Under the pieces are notes generated by a model. The model was not told where the DNA came from. It saw only the letters and a program-made list of their open reading frames with translations, and ran no database searches. Below, piece after piece: positions 53,590-59,179 of a DNA stretch of 64,000 bases (position 1 is its first letter; every line of letters begins with the position of its first letter). Origin of the DNA: Caldifarciminota bacterium. Lineage in GTDB: Bacteria > Hydrothermota > Tepidihabitantia > SM23-42. The position numbers and the translations under genes are program-made. Location of the stretch: positions 278,936 through 342,935 of the forward strand of contig CP070705.1 of NCBI GenBank assembly GCA_020349965.1, written 5' to 3'.

Positions 53590-53617
53590 ATTATAGATGC
53601 ACGGACAGACTTGTCAA
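53590..53617 (-). promoter_or_regulatory. promoter of the lipoprotein gene
   Basis: Minus-strand TTGACA (53617-53612), 16-nt spacer, TATAAT (53595-53590); it overlaps the last codons of the helicase gene. Predicted leader ~104 nt ending in AGGAGG. Confidence 0.75.
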
Positions 53618-55635
53618 GCATCCCTGCCGAACTCACCCAGGAGCCTGCGAAAATCTTCGGGATTCGTGCAAACCAGTCTCAGCCCGGCAAGAAAATCGAG
53701 GAAACCTTCAAGGTCCATATTCAGGAAGTGATCCTCGACCTGGTACTCAGGAGGCAGATCATAGAAGAAGGCACCACTGCCCAAAGCATCCTCGAGCCGC
53801 CGGATGTTGTCATGGAGCACCTTATTGACGGCATCTTTGCTGGGGATGGGAAAACGTTCGCCGGATGGCACATACTCTTTGAGCACGAGCAGTCTTCCCT
53901 CGACATCCATGGCATCGACGCCTTCACGGAAGAGAGCATCTGCCCATATGAATCCATACAGAGAGCCGAAGAGATGTAGGATGTGTGTATCCTTACCTTC
54001 AACGACGCACGGAAATTCCTCAAGGCCCAGGCCAGGAATGTATCTGCTCTTGATCACCGGAGCGAGCCTGAAGTTGTAAGAACCGGCACCTTTTCCTTCG
54101 AAGATCTTGGTGACTGCCGGGGCTTCGCCGACACACCGAGCGTAGACTTTCTTATCCTTCTCAATGATCTGACTGACCTGCCAACACTTGCCGCCGAGGA
54201 CGAACCGTTCCCGCAGATGAAATATGCGACCCACGTGTGTGCCCAACATCTCACTGAAAACATCATATTCGCCGAATGATGTTTCCGCGATATTCGAGTG
54301 GATCCTACCCCATTCAATCTTCTTCTCCAAGCGCGAAGAGTTGTAATACACACCCGGCCTCGTCTCCTCAATGTTGCCGCATTCATGCAAATGCCCGAAT
54401 ACCGCTCTCACCTTGTCCTCACCGAATACCGGGAATAACATACTCGCCAGACTGTTCACCGTCGTGCCGATGCGACGCCTCTGATGGAGATAAGAATATA
54501 CCTGCTGAGGAATGACCGACAATGCCGGTGTGTAACGCTTCTCATAGAACATCCCCTCCTTCGCACAATCGAAAAATGTATTGAAAAGTGATCGCTCCCA
54601 ACCGTTGGTGAAGATTCCGACCGCAAAGAGCTTTTGCGTACGGCGATTGCCACGACCGATCCTCTGGAGTAGTGATGAGACATTGAACGGTGGTCTGAAG
54701 AGGACGACGCAATCAACCGAGCCGATATCGATCCCCAATTCCAAGGTCGATGTTGCACACAGAATAGCGCGGTCGCTGTTGTTCATTGCCTGCTCGACCT
54801 CTTCCCTCTTGACCCTGGGCAGGCTTGCATGATGGACATGGACGAGACCGGTGAACGGTGGCACGTTCAACTTCTGCGAATGTAGTTCGGCAAGACTGCG
54901 CGCATTGAAGAAGACCAGAATTTTTTTCAAGTGTCGTTCTCTAACCAATTCCATTAATGTGGGCACGAATCTCTTGGCTTCCAATAGAAGGTATTCGATC
55001 TCGCGCGGCATCCTCAACAAGCAGACTTTGCTCGATGAGAAATAACGGTCTCCAATGGCCAGATCGTCGACCGTTGCGGAAAGAATGCAATATTGCACCC
55101 CTCCTTTGATCTTCCGCAAACGGTTCAGGAGGATGCGCAGCTGATCGCCGCGCGGCGTATTGTCGAGCAGATGTATTTCATCGAGTATTACGGCCTCGAT
55201 CTCCAGAAAGAACGCCGGATGCCGTGCAAGGAGGGAATCGAATGATTCAGGTGTGGTCAATAATACATTCGGGATCTTCTTTACAGTCAACTGTGGGCGG
55301 TCACCGGTCTTAATGCCGATTGTCAAACCCAGATATTCTACTGGGTCGCGCAACCTACGGTAGAGATCATTGACGAGCGCGCGCGTTGGAGAAACATAAA
55401 GAACTAGTAACTTGCCGGCCCGGGTGTCGGCGGTCCCCTTCTCCAGAAGGTTCTCAATGACCGGCGCAATCACCGATTCGGTCTTACCTGATGCTGCGGG
55501 CGATATGACGACTACATTATCCTTCTCCAGGATTCGCGGTATTACCAGTTCTTGTATCGGCAAGAGATCGCCAAAGTGGCCGAAGAAGGGCATCCATGTC
55601 CTGCGCAGAGATTCTTTGATCTTCCCGCTGTCCAT
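53614..55635 (-). CDS. Lhr/BrxHI-like DEAD/DEAH-box helicase
   Basis: 673 residues. Superfamily 2 motifs: Walker A SPAASGKTES (~47-56), DEIH in VILDEIHLLD (~151-154), SAT in CILSATV, and LELGIDIGSVDCVV with QRIGRGNRR (~300-345). A winged-helix and beta-rich part (~385-560) resembles Lhr-type helicases rather than RecQ or UvrB. It is the last gene of a four-gene minus-strand operon with two BrxD-like ATPases. The BrxHI helicase of type 2 BREX is the nearest relative I can name, but BREX methylase (PglX) and PglZ genes are absent here. Confidence 0.83.
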   Translation of the reverse strand: MDSGKIKESLRRTWMPFFGHFGDLLPIQELVIPRILEKDNVVVISPAASGKTESVIAPVIENLLEKGTADTRAGKLLVLYVSPTRALVNDLYRRLRDPVEYLGLTIGIKTGDRPQLTVKKIPNVLLTTPESFDSLLARHPAFFLEIEAVILDEIHLLDNTPRGDQLRILLNRLRKIKGGVQYCILSATVDDLAIGDRYFSSSKVCLLRMPREIEYLLLEAKRFVPTLMELVRERHLKKILVFFNARSLAELHSQKLNVPPFTGLVHVHHASLPRVKREEVEQAMNNSDRAILCATSTLELGIDIGSVDCVVLFRPPFNVSSLLQRIGRGNRRTQKLFAVGIFTNGWERSLFNTFFDCAKEGMFYEKRYTPALSVIPQQVYSYLHQRRRIGTTVNSLASMLFPVFGEDKVRAVFGHLHECGNIEETRPGVYYNSSRLEKKIEWGRIHSNIAETSFGEYDVFSEMLGTHVGRIFHLRERFVLGGKCWQVSQIIEKDKKVYARCVGEAPAVTKIFEGKGAGSYNFRLAPVIKSRYIPGLGLEEFPCVVEGKDTHILHLFGSLYGFIWADALFREGVDAMDVEGRLLVLKEYVPSGERFPIPSKDAVNKVLHDNIRRLEDALGSGAFFYDLPPEYQVEDHFLNMDLEGFLDFLAGLRLVCTNPEDFRRLLGEFGRDA

Positions 55636-55687
55636 TATGCTAATGCTCTGCCATCAAAATGCCACACAGCATACGCCCATCCACGAA

Positions 55688-56977
55688 CTATCCGCCCGGT
55701 CTGCCGAACCTGAACCAGTCAAACGCTTCAACCGAGAATTTTATGAATTCCCGCAACTCGCCGTAACTTCGCTTCAACGCAGCATTGCATACATTCTCTC
55801 GTTGCGGCACGATGACGGAAAAATCCGGGTATGCACAGATATAGACATCGTAGAGGTTGTTGAAAATCAATTCCAATTCAGGCTTGCTGAATTTACGCAA
55901 GAGAATCCGCCTTTCGACAAGATCCCGAACCGCCGAAAACCCACGCAAACCATGGATCGGTGTCGAGGAAAGAATGAGCAGGATATGTGGCTCACGATAG
56001 AGGTACGGTGTGGGGCGAACACGGTTGTGCAACATCTTTCTGTCGATCGACTTCAGATCATCATTATCGAGTGCACTCTGGATCAACCCCTCGAGAAAAT
56101 TCAACCCCCGCGAATGCTCGACATAGTTCCAGATATGGGCCAGCGTCTCAACTTCATCCAGGATTATCACGAGTCCACCCAGACCAGCCTTGTCGGTAAG
56201 ATGACTCAACCCGCTCAGGATGTACGTGTAATAATCAGCCGCGGTTGAATAGTCATAGAGGGCCGGTATCTTCTGTCCGCCGCGTACCCTGAATGGCGAC
56301 AGGGGGTCGATCGCATACTCCTTTGTCGATTCGCCTTCGATCCACTGCCAGAAGACCTCATTCCTCAAGGTGTCATCCTCAAGATCTCTGAGGTAGTTCA
56401 GAACAGGAGTGAAGAAACAGTGGTCCCCGATCTGTGTCTGCGCGATCTCCCGTAACAGATCCCGGAATCTGTATTCACAACCATCTTTAATGTATCGGAG
56501 ATTGTGTACCAACTCGCGGTAGACACGCTTCGGCCGGTACAGAGGCGTTTCCGGGATGCTCAATTCGCAATAAGTTGTAATAAAACCATACTTCAAACAC
56601 ATATGGTGCATGTACTCAAGAAGATGTGTCTTGCCCGAACCATAACTGCCTTCGACGAGGTATACGCTCCCTTCCCCGGCTTTCAGGTCTTTCAAACCCT
56701 TCTCCAGTTCAGACAGTTCATAACTCCGCCCGAAAGTGAAGTATTCTATGTCCTGGTGAGGTACAATACCCAGACGGAATGCTTCCAGAAGTCGCTTCGA
56801 CGAGATTTGATCTAGTTGGATATGTTTCGCGGTAATCGGCCTGAACCATTTTGCCGGCAACCATAATTCCAGTCCGCTGCGGAACTTGACCTTCAACTCA
56901 GCGCCGTCCCATCTCGCCGCTTCGACTACACCCTCGCCGAACACGGGATGCGCTACCAATCTATCTCTTTCACCCAT
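55688..56977 (-). CDS. BrxD-like (DUF2791) P-loop ATPase with N-terminal Tudor-like domain
   Basis: 429 residues. Residues ~8-47 (LVAHPVFGEGVVEAARWDGA, then VKFRSGLELWLPAKWFRPI) match the small beta-barrel at the C-terminus of PcrA/UvrD helicases, which in PcrA contacts RNA polymerase. Then follow an FGRSYEL segment, Walker A VEGSYGSGKTHLLEYM (~107-122) and Walker B GGLVIILDEVETLAHIW (~262-278). The ATPase part resembles BrxD/DUF2791 proteins of BREX. It shares an operon with a second such ATPase (46 nt upstream) and a helicase (52 nt downstream). The Tudor-like domain is missing in the paralogue. Confidence 0.78.
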   Translation of the reverse strand: MGERDRLVAHPVFGEGVVEAARWDGAELKVKFRSGLELWLPAKWFRPITAKHIQLDQISSKRLLEAFRLGIVPHQDIEYFTFGRSYELSELEKGLKDLKAGEGSVYLVEGSYGSGKTHLLEYMHHMCLKYGFITTYCELSIPETPLYRPKRVYRELVHNLRYIKDGCEYRFRDLLREIAQTQIGDHCFFTPVLNYLRDLEDDTLRNEVFWQWIEGESTKEYAIDPLSPFRVRGGQKIPALYDYSTAADYYTYILSGLSHLTDKAGLGGLVIILDEVETLAHIWNYVEHSRGLNFLEGLIQSALDNDDLKSIDRKMLHNRVRPTPYLYREPHILLILSSTPIHGLRGFSAVRDLVERRILLRKFSKPELELIFNNLYDVYICAYPDFSVIVPQRENVCNAALKRSYGELREFIKFSVEAFDWFRFGRPGG

Positions 56978-57023
56978 GAGAGCTATTTGATCCTCGGGGA
57001 TGTAGTGCGGTTATCGACAATAC

Positions 57024-58280
57024 TCAGAATTCTTCACTTTCGATTTCAGTCTTCTCGATGTCGGCCAGCATACGCACCTTCGAACGGAAAATATCCCTTG
57101 CTTCGTCCCTATTGATCACTGACATCCGCTCCTTCAGACGATGGAAAATACCTATAACACTTACGACGAAAATCCTTCGATAGCTGACATCGAGCGTTTG
57201 GAATTCCAATGCAGCCTCGATCATATTCTTTAGAGATTCATTGGACACATCGTGTTCCAGTGTCGAACCATAGGCGGTTTCGAAGACGGTCTGGAGTTTG
57301 CCACCCAGGTCCTTGAGAAAGTCGTGCGCGCTCATACCGATCTCTTCCATATTGATTCTCACGCCCATCGGATTAACCCTCGTAAAACTGGAACGCAACC
57401 TTTGCTTCAGTGCCTCGTACACACCACCGCTTCCTTCAAGGAGAAGATTCTCGTCAGGGATCGCATAGAAGAACATCGCGCCGGGAAGTCTTGAATTACC
57501 GCATTCATCGACCAGCTGTCTCAGATTATCAAGGGCACGGCGCTTATCACGCGCCGACGATATGCTCATCCCTCTTTCCGCTTCGTCAAAAAGCAAGAGC
57601 ACGCCGGAATAACCTATCGAATTAACAAATTGCACAAGGCTACGCAACATCCTGAAGGCATTGCTCCGATCCACACGTTCAGAAATTCGATATCGAAGTT
57701 TCAGCTCACGTGGCAGATCCTCACCCTTCAACCACTGGACAACTTCGAGAAACCCTTCGTCATCGTCATTCAATAGATTCATCGTAGCGGCTTTAATGGC
57801 ATTCGTAAAGCTTGAGCTCTCATAACTTCTGATATGTTCGAGCACATTGCCTTGTGCCGATTTCACAAAAGCCCGAAGAAGTATCTCGATACCAGTTTCC
57901 CATGGTTCTTCCCAGCGCAGTTCGCTCGCCGGTATCCTCAGATTCTGCACAACCGCCCTGTAGACTAATTCGAGTCGATCAAACGGACACTCGGTCGGAC
58001 TGAGCGTAACGTAACTGGAGAGATAGTTGTTCCGCCAGCCGATATTGCGAACGAGGTAGAGAAAGTGAGTCTTTCCACCACCGTAGTTGCCTGTGATAAG
58101 TTTGAAAGATGATAGATTGAACTTCAGGATGCCCTGCAGGTACTCTTCCTCAATTGCCGTGAGGTAGTTATCGACTCCCACACTGAAATATTCGATCCCA
58201 AACTCGGGCGGTGTCCCGAAACTTCCCAATTTGTGAATTATCGCCTTCGCAAGTTTTGGGTCTAAGTCTTTGCTGCCCAT
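57024..58280 (-). CDS. second BrxD-like (DUF2791) P-loop ATPase
   Basis: 418 residues. Walker A ITGNYGGGKTHFLYLV (~62-77) and Walker B SGVLLLFDEAERGMSI (~229-244) are intact. The LGSFGTPPEFGIEYFSVGVDNYL start parallels the IVPHQDIEYFTFGRSYEL stretch of the first ATPase, so the two are diverged paralogues and might form a hetero-oligomer. It begins 17 nt after the coiled-coil gene. No known target-recognition domain is visible. Confidence 0.78.
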   Translation of the reverse strand: MGSKDLDPKLAKAIIHKLGSFGTPPEFGIEYFSVGVDNYLTAIEEEYLQGILKFNLSSFKLITGNYGGGKTHFLYLVRNIGWRNNYLSSYVTLSPTECPFDRLELVYRAVVQNLRIPASELRWEEPWETGIEILLRAFVKSAQGNVLEHIRSYESSSFTNAIKAATMNLLNDDDEGFLEVVQWLKGEDLPRELKLRYRISERVDRSNAFRMLRSLVQFVNSIGYSGVLLLFDEAERGMSISSARDKRRALDNLRQLVDECGNSRLPGAMFFYAIPDENLLLEGSGGVYEALKQRLRSSFTRVNPMGVRINMEEIGMSAHDFLKDLGGKLQTVFETAYGSTLEHDVSNESLKNMIEAALEFQTLDVSYRRIFVVSVIGIFHRLKERMSVINRDEARDIFRSKVRMLADIEKTEIESEEF

Positions 58281-58297
58281 GCTACTCGGGATTCCAA

Positions 58298-59146
58298 CTA
58301 GCGCGTTTCCTCAAAGGAAATATACTCGTAATGTGTTCCGTCACCGTCCTCGTTGTCCGGCACCCAGAAAGAACGAGATTTGTCGACGGTCGCGTCGAAT
58401 GTGGCGACATGCAGTCGCATGCTCTGTTCTGCTATCCTGTTAGCTCTCAATTGAAACAACATGTAGCTCAGTTTAATTCGAGGATACTCCCGAAAATTTT
58501 CCCGTCGCGCGTCGATTGCAAACTGCCTGGGCTGCCTCATGAATACATACTCCCTCAGTACCTCCGAAATCAGTAGCTTGTCGCCGCCTGACCTGCCCGA
58601 TATCTTGAGACACCGTTGATAGGCACGGATCAGATCGTGATAGGCCGAATCCAGGTCCGCAGGTCTGGTTCTCATTTCAGAATCATATTGCTTAACCGTA
58701 TCGTAAATGGCCTTCGGATGCAAGGGTATTTTCGATCTTATCTTCTCCACTTCAGGACCGAAAAAGAGTACTGCATCGCCAAACTCGAAACTGAGTTTCA
58801 AGGTAAACATGCCAAGGCGTAAAACGGGATACTGGCCGCGAAGCTTGATACCATCCTTCGCAAACATCGTTTTCAACTGCTGCCCTAACCGGAAGCGCAG
58901 ATCTTCAGTTGCTTTCAGGATGGCCGCTTTTTCATCCTCCACCCACCCAGCCAGGGAACTCTTCAGGTCAGGGGTAGGTGAAGCGGACAGTATTTTTTCA
59001 ATTTCTACCATCTTTTTCTGCAGAAGGTAGGCATTTTCGACCCGATCGTCGAGTATTTTCTCGTATTCCTGGAGTGTTTTGACTATTCTCTTTGTGTGCT
59101 TGCTTAGGGTCTTAATGCGTTCTATTATTTCTCGTATATCTGCCAC
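58298..59146 (-). CDS. coiled-coil protein of unknown function, first gene of the helicase/ATPase cluster
   Basis: 282 residues. The first ~100 are strongly helical and charged (REIIERIKTLSKHTKRIVKT, VEIEKILS, KAAILKATEDLRFRL), a probable coiled coil. The rest is mixed alpha/beta with a HYEYISFEE end. I recognise no family. It starts with GTG, directly at the predicted transcription start of a TTGACA-16-TATAAT promoter. As the leading gene it may be the sensor, scaffold or substrate adaptor for the ATPases behind it. Confidence 0.7.
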   Translation of the reverse strand: MADIREIIERIKTLSKHTKRIVKTLQEYEKILDDRVENAYLLQKKMVEIEKILSASPTPDLKSSLAGWVEDEKAAILKATEDLRFRLGQQLKTMFAKDGIKLRGQYPVLRLGMFTLKLSFEFGDAVLFFGPEVEKIRSKIPLHPKAIYDTVKQYDSEMRTRPADLDSAYHDLIRAYQRCLKISGRSGGDKLLISEVLREYVFMRQPRQFAIDARRENFREYPRIKLSYMLFQLRANRIAEQSMRLHVATFDATVDKSRSFWVPDNEDGDGTHYEYISFEETR

Positions 59147-59151
59147 CCCTC

Positions 59152-59179
59152 ATTATAACCCGCCGAGTAAGCCTGTCAA
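59152..59179 (-). promoter_or_regulatory. promoter of the helicase/ATPase cluster
   Basis: Minus-strand TTGACA (59179-59174), 16-nt spacer, TATAAT (59157-59152), 5 nt to the GTG at 59146. Full consensus boxes suggest steady expression from a leaderless mRNA. Confidence 0.8.

Follow-up and report, generated by a model that had tools for sequence, protein, structure and literature searches.

A four-gene operon on the minus strand of a 64,000-nucleotide stretch of DNA from a Caldifarciminota bacterium (contig CP070705.1, positions 278,936 to 342,935; the whole stretch is called the window below) encodes a system that, judged from its sequences, is a third sister alongside type 2 BREX (BREX-2) and Shango, and that is absent from the databases and papers searched. 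The genes are named A, B1, B2 and C in the order of transcription, and encode a protein that matches no family, two AAA+ ATPases and a superfamily 2 (SF2) helicase, respectively. Our preferred reading, to which we assign a probability of about 45%, is a loader-helicase complex for genome maintenance, possibly linked to transcription, with derivatives in defence. Functional statements in this text are inferences from sequence, predicted structure and gene context. We found no description of the four-gene set in the literature searched, which did not extend to subscription papers and preprints; a 2026 survey of BREX covers the BrxD-BrxHI dyad only.

Phylogeny of the ATPases and the helicase

An initial annotation of this DNA had described two BrxD-like ATPases and an Lhr/BrxHI-like helicase, and the family searches agreed. 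Both ATPases matched the Pfam family PF10923 (BrxC_BrxD; Table 1), and C matched the PADLOC models for BrxHI (E = 5.1e-62) and the Shango helicase SngC (E = 3.5e-59), as well as DEAD and Helicase_C. In the maximum-likelihood trees, all B2 sequences formed one clade (support 96/95), with B1, BrxD and the Shango ATPase SngB across that branch. The C sequences of all versions of the module grouped together (100/100), to the exclusion of BrxHI and SngC. SngB and SngC were separate clades, each with a support of 100, and BrxD and BrxHI likewise formed clades of their own. Both trees are unrooted, and the relationships are therefore read irrespective of the direction of descent. According to these sequences, B1 and B2 are two anciently separated, co-inherited paralogues, while BREX-2 and Shango each use only an ATPase of the B1 type.

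The initial annotation had also suggested a stripped BREX system. A degenerate BREX-2 or Shango locus that had lost its other genes would share the BrxD-like ATPase and BrxHI/SngC-like helicase families seen here, and the gene order does resemble that of Shango. However, the separate clades of C and B2 argue that the module is neither a stripped BREX nor a stripped Shango locus but a third sister system. Neither the sequence nor the fold of A resembles TerB, and many phyla share the four-gene order, in which the active sites are intact and C is strongly conserved. The BrxD equivalog model NF033438 gave scores of 127.7 for B1 and 91.6 for B2, below its cut-off of 350. A search of the whole genome with PF10923 returned B1 and B2 only, and hence no BrxC. 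None of BrxC, PglX, PglZ and PglW occurs among the neighbours in the window, the latter three not having been searched genome-wide. Given the trees and the missing defining parts, we ruled out a degenerate locus as highly improbable.

Distribution and inheritance

B1 was present in 47 of the 61 class-level relatives, in 23 of 31 genera and in all eight genomes of the genus, with B2 essentially always after it. The phylum-wide count (WOR-3/Caldifarciminota) was 57/133. The closest named relative of B1, with 98% identity, lies on a chromosome of candidate division WOR-3 (phylum Caldifarciminota). A-B1-B2-C is the common order in WOR-3. The search for the same gene order across genomes, which the initial annotation had proposed, recovered it with matches to all four profiles in Latescibacterota, Zixibacteria, Bacillota (Clostridia), Nitrospinota, Myxococcota, Desulfobacterota, Elusimicrobiota and Chloroflexota. 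The four-gene order spans at least nine bacterial phyla, and is kept in dozens of genomes, an operon far beyond chance. By score band, a close version occurred in about 18 of the 334 Myxococcota genomes and a second version in about 35; the Myxococcota bands below 200 bits were interpreted from their scores as mainly BrxD. The module was rare in Chloroflexota, where true Shango-like loci surfaced in the same search.

Mantel tests on protein distances in 19-23 WOR-3 genomes yielded high correlations with concatenated ribosomal proteins (r = 0.85 for A, 0.86 for B1, 0.93 for B2 and 0.90 for C), and none of the 999 permutations reached values as high. WOR-3 genomes inherit the module vertically, together with the ribosomal genes.

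Within the genus, the module is flanked by genes for MgtE, CutA, a symporter and fumarase subunits, in a shared order. PADLOC matched none of the nine neighbours in the window. The neighbours bear out the earlier description of a self-contained module: no gene for a methylase, PglZ or a nuclease is adjacent. Several Myxococcota genomes carry the close version with an RluA pseudouridine synthase on one side and a LonB-like protease on the other; the second version adjoins cardiolipin synthase and an M3 peptidase (PepF). In WOR-3 and Myxococcota, such surroundings speak against a typical mobile defence. The 92 immediate neighbours of the loci outside WOR-3 were mostly housekeeping genes; a handful had strong PADLOC matches, several of them ordinary enzymes. 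Matches to DrmC and GajB among these neighbours were rejected as cardiolipin synthases and an ordinary UvrD. The patchy spread and defence neighbours of a mobile defence island were not found in WOR-3 and Myxococcota, but were found for the two plasmid copies described below.

A predicted loader-helicase core

The nucleotide-binding motifs of both ATPases are intact and, like those of C, invariant or nearly so across the family alignments (Walker A GNYGGGKT and Walker B LLFDEAE in B1; EGSYGSGKT and IILDEVE in B2). Foldseek matches of the AlphaFold2 (AF2) model of B2 (pLDDT 88) were AAA+ proteins of the ORC/Cdc6 type, including archaeal Orc1 and eukaryotic ORC subunits; matches to proteasome ATPases were set aside as generic AAA+ similarity. 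The P-loop, the intact Walker motifs and the ORC/Cdc6-like fold of the B2 model place the pair in the ORC/Cdc6 class of AAA+ ATPases (BrxC/D family). BrxD has been classed as an ORC-Cdc6 AAA+ protein and proposed to be the loader of BrxHI (PMC12839542). One genome holds a second, diverged B1-B2-C copy beside its normal operon (L063; G017 contig 72, 272-4051); its B1 match contains an in-frame stop, and the copy looks decayed.

In C, the motifs ASGKT, DEIH and QRIGRGNRR are intact and conserved across the family alignment, and the top match in the Protein Data Bank (PDB) was 5v9x, an ATP-dependent DNA helicase of Lhr size. With its DEAD and Helicase_C domains, these motifs and its Lhr-type relatives, C is an Lhr/Ski2-like SF2 helicase. 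Its length ranges from about 530 aa in many Myxococcota and 673 aa in WOR-3 to as much as 2,034 aa in Desulfobacterota. In one Desulfobacterota clade, C of 1.9-2.0 kaa carries a C-terminal superfamily 1B (SF1B; IGHMBP2-like) helicase, or a separate one comes after it. Matches to PD-(D/E)XK/Cas4-like nucleases between C and the SF1B helicase were weak (E = 0.003-0.007), and the arrangement is possibly a Dna2-like fusion. The SF1B helicase and the weak nuclease match point to an association with DNA processing.

C is not adjacent to B2 in some genomes. A full-length orthologue was located elsewhere in four of the seven such genomes searched (G155, G153, G144 and G152), which suggests that the parts usually stay together even without linkage; the other three had no C orthologue at the threshold used. 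In one genus (g2; L043 and L065), other genes are inserted between B2 and C, so that C is displaced by several kilobases while the rest is kept.

Gene A had been described as an unknown coiled-coil protein. The first part of this description holds, as A matched nothing in Pfam, PADLOC or the PDB by sequence, and the PADLOC, NCBIfam and Pfam collections contain no model for it. The AF2 model (pLDDT 94, pTM 0.85) restricts the helical part to an N-terminal three-helix segment (residues 4-96, hence only the first ~96 residues), which is followed by an alpha/beta domain. Foldseek found no match to this confidently predicted structure below an E-value of 0.5 in the PDB, nor below 0.001 among the viral models of BFVD. 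Matches of the A profile to influenza haemagglutinin and similar PDB entries were coiled-coil artefacts. The alternatives of a TerB protein, a coiled-coil toxin or a phage protein were ruled out, since neither sequence nor fold matched. A represents a conserved family with no recognisable catalytic residues. Its profile matched A of the two plasmid-borne copies described below (E about 1e-9), whereas SngA of Shango went unmatched. In one WOR-3 lineage (L109-L113), B1-B2 is kept and an accD-like gene occupies the position of A; in the one genome of this lineage that was searched (L109), C lies elsewhere.

By analogy with what has been proposed for BrxD and BrxHI, B1 and B2 may form a hetero-oligomeric loader or switch that places C on DNA and controls it, with A as an adaptor or sensor that would couple loader and helicase to a target structure. 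Of all functional claims made here, we hold most firmly to this mechanical core, a pair of AAA+ subunits for loading or switching an SF2 helicase, plus an adaptor, and we consider it probable.

The Tudor domain of B2

B2 has an additional domain in its first ~50 residues, with beta strands at residues 7-41 of the model. We built a Tudor profile from 27 B2 N-terminal domains of several phyla. The best solved relatives of this profile in the PDB were the C-terminal Tudor domains of UvrD/PcrA (6yi2, E = 2.6e-4; 7egs, 5e-4; 7egt, 0.004), and single members matched the Pfam families PcrA_UvrD_tudor (0.0017) and CarD_TRCF_RID (0.0021). UvrD/PcrA Tudor domains bind RNA polymerase (PMC5397179, PMC7585439, PMC8318588), and the Tudor domain of PcrA also binds UvrB via the same motif (PMC8318588). 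The B2 Tudor domain may accordingly dock the complex to a partner in transcription or repair, with RNA polymerase as the first candidate.

K712 of Geobacillus stearothermophilus PcrA is required for binding to RNA polymerase (PMC5397179), but the equivalent residue in B2 is a leucine. Furthermore, the PcrA interaction motif [VIL]DxxTGE[VIL][VILT] is absent from the host RpoB. The Tudor fold is thus supported, whereas docking in the manner of PcrA is not, and we rejected PcrA-style docking on RpoB. The domain is widespread on B2, yet missing from the plasmid versions and from one Desulfobacterota version. The link to transcription would depend on the predicted binding of this one domain, and is the weakest step of the proposal. 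In four module-bearing WOR-3 genomes (L249-L252), UvrD lacks the Tudor domain usually seen at its C-terminus. The same holds for a relative without the module (G030; L253), and no inference was drawn that the module compensates for this loss.

If the Tudor domain bound a partner other than RNA polymerase, for example UvrB, the module could be a factor for replication or chromosome maintenance, in which an Orc1/Cdc6-like loader serves an accessory helicase at forks or origins. The class of the ATPases, the helicase conserved beside its loaders, the shared motif by which PcrA binds UvrB and the lack of the polymerase motif in RpoB are all consistent with such a role. However, one entire family of the class (f4) lacks the module; the module is thus not essential for replication, and its neighbourhoods show no link to replication genes. 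We regard this alternative as improbable.

Genome maintenance or defence

The complex would be an ATP-driven helicase-loading and remodelling machine that works on the cell's own DNA. In WOR-3 and Myxococcota its task may be constitutive genome maintenance, such as the clearing of stalled transcription complexes, R-loops or conflicts, and BREX-2 (BrxD-BrxHI), Shango (SngB-SngC) and the plasmid versions would be related defence uses of the same core. Genome maintenance is favoured because of vertical inheritance, near-fixation and the housekeeping surroundings. The initial annotation had named a DNA repair or transcription-coupled machine as one option, and this fits our preferred explanation, its transcription part least securely.

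Several findings weigh against genome maintenance, in addition to those on the Tudor domain and the lack of the module in family f4. The nearest characterised relatives, BREX-2 and Shango, are both defence systems. Within the order, A evolves at about 4x the rate of ribosomal proteins (B1 at 1.75x), which would fit a sensor in conflict. Mfd and UvrD-family helicases were present in all 61 relatives, with or without the module, and we rejected the idea that the module replaces either of them. Finally, the module also occurs on plasmids, with only two copies found, both diverged. One is on the 27-kb plasmid pDESTI.01 of Desulfomonile tiedjei, close to an AbiE pair. The second lies on a conjugative plasmid from the cyanobacterium Aulosira laxa (L174:1-11557), where PglZ-BrxD-BrxHI, the tail of a BREX-2 locus, directly precedes the four genes. 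These two copies keep a defence role possible.

Constitutive, chromosomally inherited defence comes close behind, given the related defence systems, the plasmid copies and the rapid evolution of A. The module would then be a defensive sister to Shango and the BREX-2 dyad, in which A senses an invading DNA structure or a phage protein, B1 and B2 signal, and the helicase C acts on foreign DNA by unwinding it or translocating along it. Expression of Shango confers protection against phage (PMC10250203), and SngC, BrxHI, DruE and DpdJ constitute a defence-linked clade of SF2 helicases (PMC12278908). The SF1B helicase and the nuclease-like match that accompany C in a single clade agree with such a role as well. 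In contrast, vertical inheritance argues against it, as do the near-fixation of the module in several families of WOR-3 and the housekeeping neighbours. The WOR-3 version has no effector nuclease, modification enzyme or toxin and no known partner gene of Shango or BREX, and no orthologue was found in phages and viral contigs searched with B1. We therefore consider constitutive defence a tentative alternative, with less than even odds. The initial annotation had proposed a candidate new defence system: the new system stands, but defence is not the best reading for this genome. It had also named conserved housekeeping contexts without a defence association as evidence against defence, and this is largely what we found in WOR-3 and Myxococcota, though not on the plasmids, where one copy follows the BREX-2 tail.

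A bolder form of the genome-maintenance reading would make the module a third BrxD/BrxHI-type system, in which a heteromeric Orc1/Cdc6-like loader links the transcription machinery with an Lhr-like helicase and a new-fold protein. It would then serve core genome surveillance in several phyla, as a resident housekeeping relative of the BREX-2 and Shango defence cores. We think this full version unlikely.

Operon layout and promoters

All four open reading frames (ORFs) of the initial annotation are present, and run from 59146 to 53614 with intergenic gaps of 17, 46 and 52 nt (Table 1). A single strong promoter had been predicted. A perfect consensus does precede A, and "strong" refers to this consensus match only. 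A promoter scan of the region yielded four sites, a number no higher than in shuffled sequences, of which two were perfect. The -10 box of the operon promoter ends 6 nt ahead of the GTG of A, so that transcripts of A probably have no leader. The same placement of TTGACA/TATAAT before A was found in most relatives inspected. A consensus -10 box a few bases before the start of A also occurs in several genera, suggestive of leaderless expression in the phylum. The other perfect site overlaps the C stop codon and is the promoter of the next gene, which makes C the last gene of the module. No tRNA gene was found within the window.

Table 1. Positions of the four genes, the Tudor domain and the promoters in the window, and of related loci in Desulfobacterota.
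Feature	Position	Strand	Description and evidence
Gene A	59146-58298	minus	ORF, GTG start, 282 aa; candidate adaptor/scaffold
Gene B1	58280-57024	minus	ORF, 418 aa; BrxD/SngB-type AAA+ ATPase; PF10923 E = 9.9e-45, alignment, tree
Gene B2	56977-55688	minus	ORF, 429 aa; BrxD-like AAA+ ATPase, separate clade; PF10923 E = 5.8e-31, alignment, AF2/Foldseek, tree
B2 N-terminal Tudor/SH3-like beta domain	56834-56959	minus	Residues about 7-48; profile vs PDB, Pfam, AF2 strands
Gene C	55635-53614	minus	ORF, 673 aa; SF2 DEAD/DEAH helicase, BrxHI/SngC/Lhr group
Operon promoter, sigma-70 consensus	59179-59152	minus	12/12 match, TTGACA-N16-TATAAT
Second perfect sigma-70 consensus	53617-53590	minus	Overlaps C stop; promoter of next gene (lipoprotein-like, 53479-52667)
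C + SF1B IGHMBP2/RecD-like helicase loci	L217:6503-12385; L219:13131-19235; L216:11662-18208		Desulfobacterota

Comparison with known systems

The Tudor domain of B2 shows significant profile similarity to that of UvrD/PcrA, and keeps a histidine and one aromatic residue at positions of the PcrA interface. His10 of the B2 domain is invariant and Trp39 nearly so. In B2, however, it sits on an AAA+ ATPase, whereas in UvrD/PcrA it sits on a helicase. C shares the helicase core and the BrxHI/Lhr-type family matches of the Lhr/BrxHI/SngC SF2 helicases, but forms its own clade and is variable in length. As in the BrxD-BrxHI dyad of BREX-2, an ATPase of the ORC/Cdc6 class stands beside an SF2 helicase with Lhr-like C-terminal parts, with a proposed loader-helicase relation. 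In contrast to BREX-2, the BREX core is absent around the module, which has two ATPases, clades of its own and vertical inheritance.

The closest known layout is that of Shango (SngA, TerB-like; SngB, ATPase; SngC, helicase), which the initial annotation did not name. Both systems have the order accessory protein, BrxD-like ATPase and BrxHI/Lhr-like helicase, and the ATPases and helicases are homologous. Shango has one ATPase, whereas the module has two, and SngA is a TerB-domain protein of about 760 aa, unrelated to the 282-aa A, which had neither a PADLOC nor a fold match to a TerB-type SngA. The two systems fall in separate clades in both trees, and Shango is found on mobile elements and in defence hotspots. 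The module may exemplify a resident machine for genome maintenance that shares its stock with two defence systems or, in reverse, a defence module that has become fixed. Widespread and mostly chromosomal, with two ATPases and a Tudor subunit, this sister system offers a clean comparison for the question of what the BrxD-BrxHI and SngB-SngC pairs do biochemically.

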